A stretch of DNA of 64,000 nucleotides from a virus. The DNA is taken from the IMG/VR virus record IMGVR_UViG_3300009104_000006, positions 1 to 64,000 of that record. One strand, given 5' to 3'. The notes under the pieces are model-generated. The model was not told where the DNA came from, ran no database searches, and was given only the letters and a program-made list of their open reading frames with translations. Both the position numbers and the translations under genes were made by a program. This document shows positions 1-5,353 of the stretch, piece by piece. Numbering within the stretch: position 1 is the first letter of the stretch; every line of letters begins with the position of its first letter.

Positions 1-761
1 TCTCCCCACATCACTAATTCTTCAGTAGCGAGATTTCCACCGCTCCCCGGTATGAATGGGCAACCACCCATTCCTCCAATCGAAGAATCGAATTGTTCCA
101 CGCCACAATCGAAAGCAGCACTCAGATTATCCTTCATTCTGCCTCTTCTCTTACCATGATGGAGATGAAGGGCAATCTTAGCGTCTAACTCTTCTGTCCA
201 AGCCATCGTTTTGGTGATAAGAGGAGGGTTAGCCTTGCCGACCGTATCACATAGAACAATTGTAGAGCCCAATGTATCTGCCCAATCGAGCGCCTTCTCC
301 ATTAAGTTTCTTGGAATCTCGCCTGCAATAGGACAACCAAAAGAAGTGGAGAGATATACTCTGATGTTATCCTTCGGAACACCAGCAAGAGCATGGCAAT
401 AAGACGTGAAGATATGAGACATGGTTCTTCCGTGATTTCTCGTATTGAAGTAATCAGACGGTGAAAAGAAGACATTGTATTGGGTGACTCCTATATCCAT
501 TGCTCTCTCTATACCTTTTCTATTTGGAACGAGCATTCCTAATTCGCATTGAGACTGCAGCCAAGCCACTCTACTGAAAACCACTTCGCTATCAGCCATA
601 TTTGGAACCTTATCAGGATTCACCATAGCACCGACTTCAATCTTATCAATGCCCACTTGTGCTATCTTCTTGATGAGTTCTACTTTCTTATGAGTAGATG
701 TAATAGTGTCGCTACTTTGTAATCCGTCTCTCGGTCCCACTTCGTAAATGCTGAAGTCCAT
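1..761 (-). CDS. HMG-CoA lyase-like protein (3' end outside window)
   Basis: Open frame from an ATG at 761 running off the left edge; 253 codons are visible, against about 300 for the family. It begins with E-V-G-P-R-D-G-L-Q, the metal-binding DRE-TIM signature. It then has C-D-T-V-G-K-A-N-P, the metal-binding H-L-H, and D-S-S-I-G-G-M-G-G-C-P-F, which carries the active-site Cys of HMG-CoA lyases, followed by G-N-L-A-T-E-E-L. In the family the enzyme cleaves 3-hydroxy-3-methylglutaryl-CoA to acetyl-CoA and acetoacetate. All these residues are intact, so activity is likely. It lies 9 bases after the tagged ADP-ribosyltransferase-like gene and is the last visible gene of the run; it lacks the N-terminal tag. 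No strong ribosome-binding site is seen. A related DRE-TIM lyase or synthase is possible, but the GGCPF motif favours HMG-CoA lyase. Confidence 0.85.
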   Translation of the reverse strand, partial: MDFSIYEVGPRDGLQSSDTITSTHKKVELIKKIAQVGIDKIEVGAMVNPDKVPNMADSEVVFSRVAWLQSQCELGMLVPNRKGIERAMDIGVTQYNVFFSPSDYFNTRNHGRTMSHIFTSYCHALAGVPKDNIRVYLSTSFGCPIAGEIPRNLMEKALDWADTLGSTIVLCDTVGKANPPLITKTMAWTEELDAKIALHLHHGKRRGRMKDNLSAAFDCGVEQFDSSIGGMGGCPFIPGSGGNLATEELVMWG

Positions 762-770
762 AAAACGGAC

Positions 771-1217
771 TTAGACTGTCTTTTGATTTAGAGGAATCGG
801 CACCAGTCGTTCTCTTGGTATCGCATTAGGAAAATAAGGTATGCCTTGATACCTTTTCATATCCAATCCTCCCCCTCTTATTCCGAACATAGCAGGTGCT
901 TGATTTCTATCTTGACTTCTCCATCTGGCATACTCTGCTCCGCCTTGTGGGTCATTACTTGCATAAACGCCATGAGGATACCAATCTTGCACAGGCTTAC
1001 CTTGCAGTTGTGCTGCGGTCTGCTGCATATTCATCTGTGCTTCATATGGTAATTTAGGCTGTAATCCTTGAGTTCCAATTGCCGCAGCAGGACCAACAGT
1101 AGTCCCATGATATTGGGTTACAGGTCCATGTGGTGAGGGAAAATCGGGATGAAACTCGCCTAATGTGCTCTGACGGGTCTGTTTCAGCAAAAGCCACGCT
1201 TGGTTGAAGGGGGTCAT
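771..1217 (-). CDS. Tagged ADP-ribosyltransferase-like protein
   Basis: 148 aa from the ATG at 1217. An upstream GTG at 1229 is in frame, but the 1217 start places the shared tag MTPFNQAWLLLK at the very N-terminus. After the tag come Y-H-G-T-T (H37) with a following I-x-x-x-G-L, then H-G-V-Y-A-S-N-D-P (Y85) and A-E-Y-A. These are the usual first and second motifs of H-Y-[E/D] ADP-ribosyltransferase folds. E136 in I-P-R-E-R-L could be the third catalytic residue. In the family such enzymes move ADP-ribose from NAD to protein or nucleic acid; T4 Alt is a packaged example. The preceding gene's stop lies 9 bases before the ATG. The target is unknown. Confidence 0.6.
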   Translation of the reverse strand: MTPFNQAWLLLKQTRQSTLGEFHPDFPSPHGPVTQYHGTTVGPAAAIGTQGLQPKLPYEAQMNMQQTAAQLQGKPVQDWYPHGVYASNDPQGGAEYARWRSQDRNQAPAMFGIRGGGLDMKRYQGIPYFPNAIPRERLVPIPLNQKTV

Positions 1218-1225
1218 CCGTGAGT

Positions 1226-1696
1226 TCACTCCATGACTTTGACTGGTAAGGGCGTATCACCGTGACCACGAGCGAAGAGTTCAGCCATTCTATGTCTCCC
1301 TTCATGATATGTTTCAGGCTGAGAATCGGGAAAAACATATGGCATACCGAACTTGATGTCCTCTCCCGCTTGTGCTCTGTCCATCAACTCTTGATAGAAA
1401 GTATCATCTGACTCTCTTGGAGACTTTTTTCTTCCTAATGCGTCAATATATATACCGCCCTTTTCCTCTCCAGTAGTCATTTTTCCGTATTCACCGGGTG
1501 TTATGTGCTGAATCTCCCCCTGAGGAAAATTTAGACTGTGTCCTTTACTTGGGTCATCGGGAACGTAGCCGTATACATTCTCTTGTGACCTCCAATGGGG
1601 GTCATCTTCGCCTTGTGTAACAAAATTGATGTTGGGAATACCCGTTTCATAAATTGGTGCTTTAAGTAAAGCCCATGCTTGGTCGAAGGGGTTCAT
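1226..1696 (-). CDS. Tagged HEGRHR-motif protein (ParB-like fold), short form
   Basis: 156 aa; the ATG overlaps the previous stop as ATGA. It opens with MNPFDQAWALLK. The C-terminal part has a predicted strand F-G-M-P-Y-V-F-P, then Y-H-E-G-R-H-R-M-A-E-L (residues 130-140), then P-L-P-V-K-V. This layout resembles the small ParB/sulfiredoxin-like domain found in phage polyvalent proteins (dG-x-HR, then alternating strand). The next upstream gene has the same domain in a longer protein, so the two are probably paralogues. It could be a nuclease-like or nucleotide-binding fold. I cannot assign a reaction. Confidence 0.5.
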   Translation of the reverse strand: MNPFDQAWALLKAPIYETGIPNINFVTQGEDDPHWRSQENVYGYVPDDPSKGHSLNFPQGEIQHITPGEYGKMTTGEEKGGIYIDALGRKKSPRESDDTFYQELMDRAQAGEDIKFGMPYVFPDSQPETYHEGRHRMAELFARGHGDTPLPVKVME

Positions 1697-2403
1697 TGTT
1701 GTCCCTCCATGCTAAACATTTCGGGAGTGAGTTCCAAATTCCTTTCCTTATCATATTGCCCTCGTAGTTTCACACCAACTAAATCATCCATCATTTCTTG
1801 TGTGGCCGGATGAGGATATTCACCCCGATGTCCGCGATTATCGTCATAATCATCCGTTGAAATCTGCACAGGCACTGGCTCATCACCCATCAAATTATGA
1901 ATAGCCGCCATCCTGTGTCTCCCTTCGTGACCTATAACATTCCCCCTACTCACATTAAGATTTGGAATAAAAGTGGGCACGCCCGCCCTCATATTTTCCT
2001 CAATACCCTTGCCCGTCTTTGATTCTAAATAATGGCTAATATCAAGATTACCCTTTTCGTCGGCCCCGTAATATCCCGGCTCGTTCGTCGACGCCAAACT
2101 GAGAAAATCCGAGGGGCGCATCATAACTTTGCCCGCCATCCTACCAAACCACGGACTCCCACCCATCGGAAAATAATTCGGGACAATACGTTTGCTTTCC
2201 CAATCATGCCAATCGTCCCTCCAATGACTCGGCTTCTCGCCTAAATCCCTCGTTTGTGGAAAACCCTTTTCATCAAACCATTTTTTGTCCTCTTCATCTT
2301 CACCTGAATAAATCGGCTCATCCCTATCCCAAAATTCAGTCGGCCCAACTTTGTATCTCGCCATTTTGAGAACTTGCCACGCTTGGTCGAAGGGGGTCAC
2401 CAT
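1693..2403 (-). CDS. Tagged HEGRHR-motif protein, long form
   Basis: 236 aa, starting MVTPFDQAWQVLK; GGAGG precedes the ATG by six bases. The middle is rich in Trp and acidic residues. A P-S-D-F-L-S-L-A segment (residues 97-104) and G-V-P-T-F-I-P lead into G-H-E-G-R-H-R-M-A-A-I (158-168) and P-V-P-V-Q-I. The arrangement parallels the 156-aa neighbour and matches phage proteins in which an 'FL-LA' strand is followed by an EGRHR helix. I infer a ParB/sulfiredoxin-like fold. The partner or substrate is unknown. Confidence 0.5.
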   Translation of the reverse strand: MVTPFDQAWQVLKMARYKVGPTEFWDRDEPIYSGEDEEDKKWFDEKGFPQTRDLGEKPSHWRDDWHDWESKRIVPNYFPMGGSPWFGRMAGKVMMRPSDFLSLASTNEPGYYGADEKGNLDISHYLESKTGKGIEENMRAGVPTFIPNLNVSRGNVIGHEGRHRMAAIHNLMGDEPVPVQISTDDYDDNRGHRGEYPHPATQEMMDDLVGVKLRGQYDKERNLELTPEMFSMEGQQ

Positions 2404-3044
2404 CTAAAACCACCTCTTTTAATCCGCTCCTCTTCCTCACGTCGCCATTGACGATATGAGTCTGCGGCAGGATTCTTTACTTTCACTCTTTCATCATCAC
2501 GCGCTTTCCCCCATTCATGAGAATGACTCACCGTAGACAACGGATGCCTCAAAGCCTCGGCAGGGTCATGCCTTGAAGCCATTAGTTCATGGACTAACTG
2601 TAATTGAACCATAGGCTTAACATCCCCTTGTTTAAGACTCGCGTATGCATTTTTGAAAGCACTAATCATCTCAGGTGTATTCTGTATAGCCTCATGGGTG
2701 CTTTCATGAGCGGCTGCATCTATAACATTCTCCATCAAAGGTTGGTCATATTTCTTGTCATAAGTGTCCCAACTGGTATTTCTAAAATCATCAATCTTGG
2801 GGTCATAATTTATCCCAAAACGACCATCTACACCCTCATAATCGCCCGCCTTATTGGGCCAACCTCTATGTGCTAAATTGACTCTACCTACCGAATTACC
2901 TGTTACATCGGTGTTATAGAAGCCCGGTGAAAAATCTCGGATAGGCAACGGATAGTGTTCTATCTCATCCTTAAACGGACTCTCTTCCGAATCAAGGAGA
3001 AATTCGGTTTTCAGCAAAAGCCACGCTTGGTTGAAGGGGTTCAT
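2397..3044 (-). CDS. Tagged putative zinc metalloprotease (HExxH)
   Basis: 215 aa; starts MNPFNQAWLLLK at an ATGA overlap with the preceding gene. The body holds A-A-H-E-S-T-H-E-A-I, an HExxH zinc-binding motif at H113-H117 within a predicted helix. A later helix, V-H-E-L-M-A-S (about residue 167), could supply the third ligand. HExxH is the hallmark of zincin metallopeptidases, so a protein-cutting role is plausible. The motif is short and can arise by chance, but its helix context is right. The last codons overlap the next gene by seven bases. Confidence 0.45.
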   Translation of the reverse strand: MNPFNQAWLLLKTEFLLDSEESPFKDEIEHYPLPIRDFSPGFYNTDVTGNSVGRVNLAHRGWPNKAGDYEGVDGRFGINYDPKIDDFRNTSWDTYDKKYDQPLMENVIDAAAHESTHEAIQNTPEMISAFKNAYASLKQGDVKPMVQLQLVHELMASRHDPAEALRHPLSTVSHSHEWGKARDDERVKVKNPAADSYRQWRREEEERIKRGGFRW

Positions 3045-3697
3045 CTTTGCCCCCTATGCGGCCAATTACTTCTATCCTTGTGTTTCGCCCACATTCTTTC
3101 AGCATTATTGGTTTGGTTATCATCGCGCACAATTACATGACCTCCTCGTGTCTCCCTGTCGAGAACATCAGCAGCCATATCATACATGGCAGTCCCATGA
3201 CCCTGATGTTTGTAATTATCCAACATTATCATATAATCCATCAAACTGATGTCTGAATGTTCAGGATTATCTTTTTTCCAATCTTCAAATCCTTTCACTC
3301 TTCTCATTGGTCCAGCATCCTTGACTCTCGGCATACCTATCATGTTCCTGTTGGCGAAGTTATTATCGCTTTCTTGAGGTCGAAAGGAAGCCTCTGCTAT
3401 TGAGTGCCTGTAACCGTCATCGACCCATTCTTTTGGCACATCGCCCACATCATGATTAGGTGGTAAAATGTTCATGTTTATCGTCGGATATGAAAATCTC
3501 CCATACGCCGTGTCTGTTTCGGCATGATTGATGTCAGCCACCATCGGGTGCATCTCGCCAGTCTCAGGATGCTTGAAGTCAGCGACATAGCGAACGTTCT
3601 CATCCCCCTCATTATCTTGCCACGTGTCGCGCCTTTCTAAACTACCATCGACCATAGGTGCTTTGAGAAAAGTCCACGCTCGGTTGAAAGGGGTCAT
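3041..3697 (-). CDS. Tagged GNAT-type acetyltransferase-like protein
   Basis: 218 aa; starts MTPFNRAWTFLK, with GGAGG six bases before the ATG and an ATGA overlap with the upstream gene. The C-terminal third contains K-H-Q-G-H-G-T-A-M-Y-D (H164-G168), which fits the acetyl-CoA phosphate-binding motif (Q/R-x-x-G-x-G/A) of GNAT enzymes. It is followed by a helix, a strand V-I-V-R and N-x-x-x-x-x-M-W, where GNATs often have N...A...Y/W. An acetyl transfer to protein, peptide or small molecule is likely; the acceptor is unknown. Confidence 0.5.
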   Translation of the reverse strand: MTPFNRAWTFLKAPMVDGSLERRDTWQDNEGDENVRYVADFKHPETGEMHPMVADINHAETDTAYGRFSYPTINMNILPPNHDVGDVPKEWVDDGYRHSIAEASFRPQESDNNFANRNMIGMPRVKDAGPMRRVKGFEDWKKDNPEHSDISLMDYMIMLDNYKHQGHGTAMYDMAADVLDRETRGGHVIVRDDNQTNNAERMWAKHKDRSNWPHRGQR

Positions 3698-5214
3698 TGG
3701 AAGCCTCCGGGTATTCTCTCAGCCATATCATCTCTGGAAATCGGTCCCAGCACGTGGTTGCGATTCTTATCATAGAAGGTATACATCCCATCTCTCTGTT
3801 CCCATCCCATTATGTTGTCTGCTGCACCATCAGGCATCAATCCTTGAATAAATGCATTTGGTAAATGCCCCCACTCTCGGTTGTGTTTGTTTCCATAGTA
3901 TTGCGGGGTCCAGTTTTTCGGCACACCCCCAGTAACGAGTTGCTCTGGTGGAAAATCCCCCTCAATATAGGCCTCTGCTCCTTCTGCAGAATGCCCAGTG
4001 TTAGCAAATTGCCCCGTCATTTTAGACGGGTCTCCTCTTACTCCTACCCATTGACTGACCTCACTATCGTTTCCTCCAAAGCCCACTGGCTTTACACGGT
4101 CTGTTTTTTCCTTCGATGAGTCACGGAGTCCTCCAAATTCCCTGCTTAAGTAGGCATCAACGTCATCAATTGCAGGCGCAGGAGACATAAAATTACCAAG
4201 ATAAGGATTTTCTTCGTCATGATAAGTCGAATCACCTATCTGGACCGGTGGCCCCGCTTCAAAAGGCATCCTCTTGCCATAATCTACTCTGCGAGGGTCA
4301 TGCTCGTGCTCCCACATCTGAGAATCTTCATGCATTTCGCGCCCTTTAATTCCCCGTTTTCGCGCATCCATCGCATGTTCGGGGTTCATATATCGTAAAG
4401 CGCTAACTGGTTCCACGCCCTCCCAACCAGTAGTCCTATCGAGACTCCAATCGTGCTCAGGTAAAATGCTATCACGAGAAGTCTCTGGATTGAGAATGGG
4501 GCTAAAAGGCATAGCATAATGCCTCGGTAGTTCTCTGTCTTCGCTAAATCCTAACTCTTCTAACTTGTTCCAATTGTTATTGATATCGGGATTAAACTTA
4601 ATTGAGTTGGCCCGCATCTCATCATAGGTTATCTGCCCCGCATGATAAGCACGGAGAGACTGTTCTCTTTTGTTAGCCAAATCTTCCAGATGAGCAACTT
4701 GTTCAGGAAGAGTTCTCGATACTGGTTGGTCTCTTAGATACCATTTTTCTTGAGGCGTAAGAAGTAAGCCATCTTCACCAAACCATTCCTTCCGTTGTTT
4801 AGATGTCGGTGAGCGATACGAAATCCGCTCTTCATTCCCTCTAAGCCTGTGTAGCCTTTCCGCCCATTCCCTTGCTTTTGCTTTGTTTTGTGCGTCAATA
4901 TGGTCCTGAGTCACTGGGAACGACAAACCGTCACCTTGATTCAGAAGCCTCTCGTGCACAACCTCATCGAGCCCCCAAGGCGCAAATGTCTTTAGTTCAT
5001 CCATCTCATTTGCGAACTCGTGAGGGTAATGTTCGTGATTTTTGGGCAACAAATACATCTTTACCGAGTTAGGAACCTCATCGTAGCGACGAAACCTCTC
5101 TAATTTTTCAAAAATTTTATTGTCCCTTCTCGGCACTGGTTTTGGCTTCATTCCCCATTGGTCTAACGTAGTCTGAGCCTTCAGAATATCGAATGCACTG
5201 TCGATAGGGTCCAC
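3694..5214 (-). CDS. Large tagged protein of unknown function
   Basis: 506 aa if translation starts at the GTG at 5214. The frame is open to 5271, but only this start places MDPIDSAFDILK at the N-terminus, matching the tag of the downstream genes. The body is hydrophilic and rich in Trp, Arg, Asp and Pro, with several W-x-x-x-x-Y stretches; I see no catalytic motif, membrane segment or signal peptide. The C-terminus has M-Y-T-F-Y-D, a short beta-hairpin-like piece. As first gene of the leftward run it is probably abundant. Its size and composition would suit an internal virion protein, but that is a guess. Confidence 0.55.
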   Translation of the reverse strand: MDPIDSAFDILKAQTTLDQWGMKPKPVPRRDNKIFEKLERFRRYDEVPNSVKMYLLPKNHEHYPHEFANEMDELKTFAPWGLDEVVHERLLNQGDGLSFPVTQDHIDAQNKAKAREWAERLHRLRGNEERISYRSPTSKQRKEWFGEDGLLLTPQEKWYLRDQPVSRTLPEQVAHLEDLANKREQSLRAYHAGQITYDEMRANSIKFNPDINNNWNKLEELGFSEDRELPRHYAMPFSPILNPETSRDSILPEHDWSLDRTTGWEGVEPVSALRYMNPEHAMDARKRGIKGREMHEDSQMWEHEHDPRRVDYGKRMPFEAGPPVQIGDSTYHDEENPYLGNFMSPAPAIDDVDAYLSREFGGLRDSSKEKTDRVKPVGFGGNDSEVSQWVGVRGDPSKMTGQFANTGHSAEGAEAYIEGDFPPEQLVTGGVPKNWTPQYYGNKHNREWGHLPNAFIQGLMPDGAADNIMGWEQRDGMYTFYDKNRNHVLGPISRDDMAERIPGGFQ

Positions 5215-5353
5215 TGCACTCACGAATGACGGAAAGCGGTCAACCTCTTTGACGTTTCGATGAATAAACAATTGATAAATGAAACAAAGTCGCTTTGCGC
5301 GTGGATTATCTGTTTTTGTGAAAATTTTCTCCAGCGCTGTGCGTGACTATAGA

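Follow-up and report, generated by a model that had tools for sequence, protein, structure and literature searches.

Why do six neighbouring genes of a virus, whose products are otherwise unrelated, begin with the same ten-residue motif? The question is raised by a stretch of 64,000 nucleotides (the window) that forms the first part of the 102,093-base virus record IMGVR_UViG_3300009104_000006 (G000), which, judged by gene content against the published description, has the gene content of a magrovirus-like archaeal virus. At the left end of the window, six consecutive minus-strand genes fill positions 771-5223, and each of them starts with P-(F/I)-x-x-A-(W/F)-x-Φ-L-K, called here the tag, before diverging into a body of its own. 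An earlier sequence-only reading had picked out these six leftward genes and their motifs, all of which are present, and had regarded the tag as a sorting signal; its positions are correct, yet the feature is wider, with further copies of the tag lying outside the window in the same record. The analysis reported here indicates that P-Φ-(D/N/E)-x-A-W-x-Φ-L-K is very probably a true docking or sorting signal, and that its destination is fairly likely to be the virus head.

The tag is a separable module. Related virus records contain about 225 N-terminal tags, which stand ahead of about 100 unrelated protein clusters, and this number answers how many families follow the tag; the clusters were formed at E 1e-3 and their count is an upper bound, as fast-evolving relatives may be split. 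When 95 representatives were aligned, the invariant columns all fell within the tag (P1, A5, W6 and K10, with L9 nearly so), which is essentially the sole element common to them. In bacteriophage homologues of the tagged bodies, the alignment starts behind the tag in nearly all cases. Pfam domains found behind it are D12 DNA adenine methylase (2.7e-17), HD hydrolase (1.1e-6) and DUF6321 (2.2e-17). The number of body clusters and the confinement of invariance to the tag rule out that it is part of one conserved domain, and its separability, which had been asserted from the six genes, is borne out. The tag shares with the capsid-targeting sequence (CTS) of phage T4 the property of being a short N-terminal peptide on otherwise unrelated proteins.

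Although first taken as an N-terminal signal, a place that it does hold in the proteins counted above, the tag also occurs internally and at the C-terminus. About 11 proteins carry the motif at most six residues from the stop, and in record G006 a protein of 960 residues, itself beginning in a tag-like manner, contains four internal copies (M-x-I-A-F-Q-L-L-K) at intervals of about 200 residues. One domain, which L137 and L157 encode as an N-tagged gene of its own, is part of a fusion in L163, where an internal tag precedes it. Because internal and C-terminal copies exist, the tag would be a position-independent docking motif and not just a removable N-terminal sequence, function at either end or inside being typical of a docking peptide. 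A basic C-terminal module (ERKSPEAMRRKLEYDKKY...RARHFK) also recurs in L036, L042, L054, L062, L063, L072, L132 and others, where it follows an internal tag and is attached to different proteins.

The occurrence of the tag follows the capsid genes. To look for F-type tags, 2.9 million virus contigs were scanned with a degenerate DNA pattern. Searches of whole records gave 139 matches, found in all 37 of the 37 records that bear the tag, against 0 for the reversed control. Cellular genomes, 257 Gb in all, yielded a single match to a pattern of the same type; it lies within a membrane protein of another kind and was taken as chance. For the tag itself, chance origin is excluded. The T4 CTS belongs to late genes lying with head genes, and its counterpart here is the co-orientation of all 139 matches in the 37 records with the capsid gene, a likeness of strand and not of transcription. 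Homologous major capsid proteins (MCPs) are encoded by 47 of 50 tag-bearing records and, where gene order was read, the majority of the tagged genes are upstream of that for the terminase. The 37 records had been picked for carrying the tag; a second set was picked by the capsid gene alone (n=20), consists mostly of fragments, and has the tag in all three records longer than 90 kb. One tag match in this second set lies on the strand opposite the capsid gene.

Co-orientation with late genes would suit any late function, including one in which the tag acts within the infected cell late on, either by binding one host protein or by bringing viral proteins together where assembly or replication takes place, with none of these viral proteins leaving in virions. 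An intracellular replication target would also be suited by the PCNA-box-like RQTxLxx[FYW] motif in the ADP-ribosyltransferase (ART) cargo. Such a role is nevertheless unlikely, as ARTs, DNA methylases and HD hydrolases would be more useful early than late in the lytic cycle and packaged ARTs are usually recognized by their location with the head genes (PMC9503650).

The end of the tag provides a link to the prohead protease. In 58 aligned S78 proteases, a hypervariable N-terminus is followed by [IL]-x-[IL]-[LIV]-K, a short linker and the catalytic domain, and at the C-terminal edge of this domain ILK is invariant save for one residue in one sequence. The 54 MCPs compared all have L33, K34 and D36, position 35 being A or S, and K-A-D is retained in the Druskaviridae. 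The Φ-L-K end of the tag matches these conserved islands flanking the protease domain and in the MCP, which are putative cleavage sites of the protease, and it is our hypothesis that the enzyme would also cut after the tag lysine. In T4, packaging requires no more than the 10 N-terminal residues (the CTS) of IPIII, whose processing depends on residues 8 and 10, and a matching site lies close to the N-terminus of the protease gp21 itself (PMC9026906). In three head-module proteins of record G047 (L230, 13857-18744), the N-terminus is hypervariable and conserved Φ-Φ-K-G-D-G or I-R-K-A islands come after it; these islands are possible further sites of the prohead protease.

This match bears on a second alternative, in which the tag docks late proteins on another part of the virion, such as the tail tip or the portal-tail connector, for delivery from there. 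Strand evidence cannot tell head from tail, and some tagged genes of G000 (at 86390 and 81152) are downstream of the MCP gene, within the head-tail region. A tail destination is, however, quite improbable in view of the Φ-L-K end, whose resemblance to prohead-protease-type islands points to the head, and of the position of most tagged genes with respect to the terminase gene. The motif could also be merely a recognition site of the protease without any targeting, its internal copies being cleavage sites of polyproteins, and indeed Φ-L-K is common to the putative autoprocessing sites while the internal copies sit between modules. We regard this as very unlikely, given that P, A and W are invariant in the tags and absent from the islands of MCP and protease; because they are missing there, these upstream residues must have another role, and the C-terminal copies would leave almost nothing to cut off.

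The tag is conserved at the protein level. The 225 N-terminal tags exist in 214 distinct DNA versions and the codons of the invariant proline are used about equally (66/55/54/50). Selection acts on the peptide, because synonymous sites vary freely while residues stay fixed. When the last positions were left free, L9 and K10 were each kept in 229 of 249 cases, a figure that is partly circular, as the loci were fetched with patterns requiring both. Codon variation together with the internal and C-terminal copies rules out a DNA-level or translation element. Under another idea, the common start simply reflects gene shuffling: a 5' cassette carrying translation signals would recombine between genes, and its peptide would be functionless. 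This would fit the clustering of the tagged genes, their overlaps of a few bases and their fast turnover between related viruses, but is scarcely credible against residues so fixed and against internal and C-terminal copies that need no start signal.

On balance, we favour the reading that cargo enters the prohead by means of the tag, which would serve as a short docking helix, may in addition be a substrate of the protease and would in this way act like a T4 CTS. Magroviruses would attach the tag to late proteins as an address peptide. Its probable fold is an amphipathic helix, one face of which would be formed by F2, A5, W6 and L9, and this helix would bind a prohead component, for which scaffold, portal and the inner face of the capsid are candidates, so that the attached protein is drawn inside before DNA packaging. 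A possible cut by the prohead protease behind the lysine would free N-tagged cargo and split multi-module proteins at internal tags, and the cargo would then be released into the archaeal host with the DNA. We infer the docking step from modularity, position independence and late-strand location, while enclosure of the cargo, the cut and the exit with the DNA are proposed by analogy with T4, phiKZ-like phages, P1 and the packaging of phage ARTs (PMC9503650). A bolder version is speculative and rather doubtful: one ten-residue helix and a lysine-type prohead protease cut would form a universal, position-independent cargo code, by which a large, fast-changing enzyme arsenal is loaded and then released into Poseidoniales cells, some of it being ARTs that target the replication clamp through PCNA-binding boxes.

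Several points weigh against the docking-helix proposal. Strict patterns match in only 12 of the 20 MCP-bearing records picked without regard to the tag, and the tag was not found by pattern in the Druskaviridae, the nearest cultured relatives. As for cleavage, the residue directly after the tag lysine is unrestricted, ILK at the protease edge and LK in the MCP could be kept for structural reasons, and cleavage alone cannot explain the motif, because a cut after the lysine would leave C-terminal tags on. Moreover, we know of no virion proteomics for these uncultured viruses.

Capsid-targeting sequences and head-packaged effectors are already known, and several systems can be compared with the tag. 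The T4 CTS of IPI-III and Alt is likewise made of about ten N-terminal residues on different proteins, one of them an ADP-ribosyltransferase, encoded by late genes, and has a short end motif resembling the own sites of the prohead protease (PMC9026906, PMC7411985). The magrovirus tag differs in its sequence, with a presumed lysine before the cut where T4 has glutamate, in its many more cargo families and in its internal and C-terminal copies. It also belongs to an archaeal virus with an S78-type protease, and its part in packaging is a proposal. The T4 gp21 consensus (L/I)-x-E is not found in the tag, which ends in Φ-L-K. The analogy from which a sorting signal was first proposed is strengthened by two independent lines, the strict co-orientation with capsid genes and the match to putative sites of the virus's own protease, but does not extend to the T4 cleavage consensus; the tag may act like the T4 CTS without being a member of that family.

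In phiKZ-like phages (SPN3US, phiKZ, 201phi2-1), several head proteins have propeptides that are removed by the prohead protease, some of them thought to be prohead-targeting (PMC7411985). These propeptides are, however, long (more than 100 residues for several SPN3US proteins), share no common short tag and are cleaved after a glutamate motif. The polyvalent and MuF-fused effectors described by Iyer, Aravind and colleagues include ART, GNAT, zincin and nucleotide-targeting domains that are encoded with head genes and thought to be packaged and injected (PMC9503650, PMC7824862). They are fused to MuF, to the portal or to each other in large proteins, whereas the magrovirus cargo consists mostly of separate small proteins with a common peptide, or of proteins joined by internal copies. 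Finally, phage P1 packages the Dar anti-restriction proteins, and the N-terminus of DarA is cut by the prohead protease (PMC12810830), and a DNA methylase is likewise among the tagged proteins. P1 is, on the contrary, a bacterial phage, and no common short tag across Dar proteins is described in the literature examined. If packaged, the tagged D12 methylase could modify incoming DNA at once, as the Dar proteins protect that of P1. Encapsulin cargo-loading peptides are short peptides that sort unrelated enzymes into an HK97-fold shell, as proposed for the tag, but encapsulins are cellular compartments and involve neither proteolysis nor DNA.

Such a modular effector set in an archaeal virus had been called undescribed, and no account of the tag was found in the searchable literature, outside which most subscription papers and the first magrovirus paper lie. 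Within those limits, there is no description of a short tag that has such a sequence and so many cargo families, is used at three positions and belongs to an archaeal virus. If our proposal is true, no short capsid-address tag of an archaeal virus would have been described before it in searchable papers, and it would be the most promiscuous tag of its kind to our knowledge. A ten-codon signal would then tell which nameless magrovirus genes reach the host, so that candidate proteins for host takeover and counter-defence could be listed at once, and the question of which archaeal virus proteins are injected would become directly testable. It would also be a possible tool for loading chosen proteins into a virus-like shell.

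The six tagged genes, the gene that follows them and the further copies in the record are listed in Table 1. Neighbouring tagged genes overlap by a few bases in an operon-like manner. The tags of genes 1-5 lie a few residues from an in-frame start, and gene 6 most likely starts at a GTG near 5223 (VSAVDPIDSAF...), by comparison with a close relative in record G047.

Table 1. Tagged genes at the left end of the window, adjoining gene and further tag copies in record G000.
Feature	Position	Strand	Remarks
Tagged gene 1, ADP-ribosyltransferase-fold protein, predicted (YHGT motif)	771..1229	-	tag PFNQAWLLLK 1182-1211, then RQSTLGEF motif
Tagged gene 2, HEGRHR protein	1226..1696	-	tag PFDQAWALLK 1661-1690
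Tagged gene 3, second HEGRHR protein	1693..2403	-	tag PFDQAWQVLK 2365-2394
Tagged gene 4, probable zincin metalloprotease (HESTH ... HELMA)	2397..3044	-	tag PFNQAWLLLK 3009-3038; motif only
Tagged gene 5, probable GNAT acetyltransferase	3041..3697	-	tag PFNRAWTFLK 3662-3691; weak profile matches
Tagged gene 6, large protein, no fold assigned	3694..5223	-	tag PIDSAFDILK 5179-5208, QTTLDQWG motif behind
HMG-CoA lyase-like gene, without tag, next in operon	3..761	-	Pfam HMGL-like 1.7e-26
Further tag, head/tail module	86390-86416		outside window
Further tag, head/tail module	81152-81178		outside window
Internal tag copy, head/tail module	85778-85807		outside window

Pfam and PHROGs searches with the six tagged proteins of the window matched nothing useful, and no Pfam match was obtained for the product of gene 1. 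An ART fold, and with it the status of a predicted enzyme, is supported for this product by its AlphaFold model (pLDDT 82), whose best PDB folds are KptA/Tpt1, then DarT1 and PARPs; the top 20 folds are all KptA/Tpt1 or DarT1, with a best E of 6e-3 and a probability of 1.00. In the ART alignment, G36 is invariant and H35 near-invariant, forming the NAD-binding HG[TS] motif. R13, Q14 and L17 are also invariant, in the motif behind the tag (19 ART proteins). This RQTxLxx[FYW] motif occurs in ART-type proteins as well as in some modules of long proteins (the 960-residue protein of G006 and those of 667 and 629 residues of G047), and it resembles archaeal PCNA-binding boxes (Q-x-x-h-x-x-a-a), the last position being usually not aromatic. 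Outside the ART cluster, the PCNA-box motif showed no excess over shuffles. Published magroviruses encode their own PCNA.

The other readings of the cargo are weaker, be it GNAT, zincin or ParB/sulfiredoxin. Gene 5 probably encodes a GNAT acetyltransferase, its three weak profile matches (RibT, a putative acetyltransferase and PA4534; E 0.03-0.31) being all of acetyltransferase type. The product of gene 4 is probably a zincin metalloprotease, with HESTH (HExxH) and HELMA downstream; HExxH is found in 19 tagged bodies against 2.7 in shuffles, the 19 including four HEGRH matches. For the HEGRHR proteins (gene 2 model pLDDT 77), nothing in the PDB fell below E 1e-3, and the non-significant matches include sulfiredoxin, PadC, ParB and Osa. 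The tagged D12 methylase is encoded at 7616-8527 of L116, a contig with no match to the protease, so that its place in the same virus group is putative only. The bodies had been read as resembling an ART, an acetyltransferase, a zincin, two HEGRHR proteins and a large unknown, and the set as a whole as one of protein-modifying enzymes. Structure comparison upholds the ART fold, and good structural support is limited to it; several tagged proteins are enzymes, but the set is broader, with a DNA methylase, an HD hydrolase, and basic and zinc-ribbon proteins.

The record itself carries PolB, an ATP-dependent DNA ligase and an AAA/clamp-loader-type ATPase on the plus strand of the window. Beyond the window, its minus strand carries a head/tail module with genes for terminase and portal, for an S78 prohead protease fused to a scaffold-like C-terminal half and for an MCP of the SU10 type. 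This MCP had no match in the PDB by sequence and is 32-33% identical to the MCPs of Druskaviridae, which infect halophilic archaea; virus relatives from a phage collection were Druskaviridae and one Methanofastidiosa virus only. Magroviruses are tailed viruses of Poseidoniales with genomes of 90-110 kb, replication and head modules on opposite strands, and a gene set of PolB, ligase, clamp loader and HMG-CoA lyase (PMC10768690). Their archaeal hosts are abundant in the ocean and uncultured. Compared with this published description of Magrovirales (PMC10768690), the record agrees in genome size, in its two opposed gene blocks, in its replication set and in its HMG-CoA lyase. It also has the Druskaviridae-related MCP, S78 prohead protease, portal and TerL expected of Magrovirales, in line with the archaeal virus assumed beforehand. 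Among the viruses of surface ocean plankton, magroviruses have been described as possibly ranking third in abundance (PMC10160649).

The protein gp115 of HVTV-1 has two AAxSΦLKD stretches of loose similarity, which were not counted as tags. Between the portal and protease genes of G000, the minus strand encodes a 1889-residue protein (90766-96435, L010) that begins with GPMDVYLRHRSELLKA and gives marginal domain matches only. It occupies the position of the zeta-toxin protein in Druskaviridae, which has an ART-like end in HVTV-1. A giant minus-strand open reading frame of about 5500 codons runs from 61032 in the window past the window end to 77579 (L009), and probably encodes a tail-tip or fibre protein.

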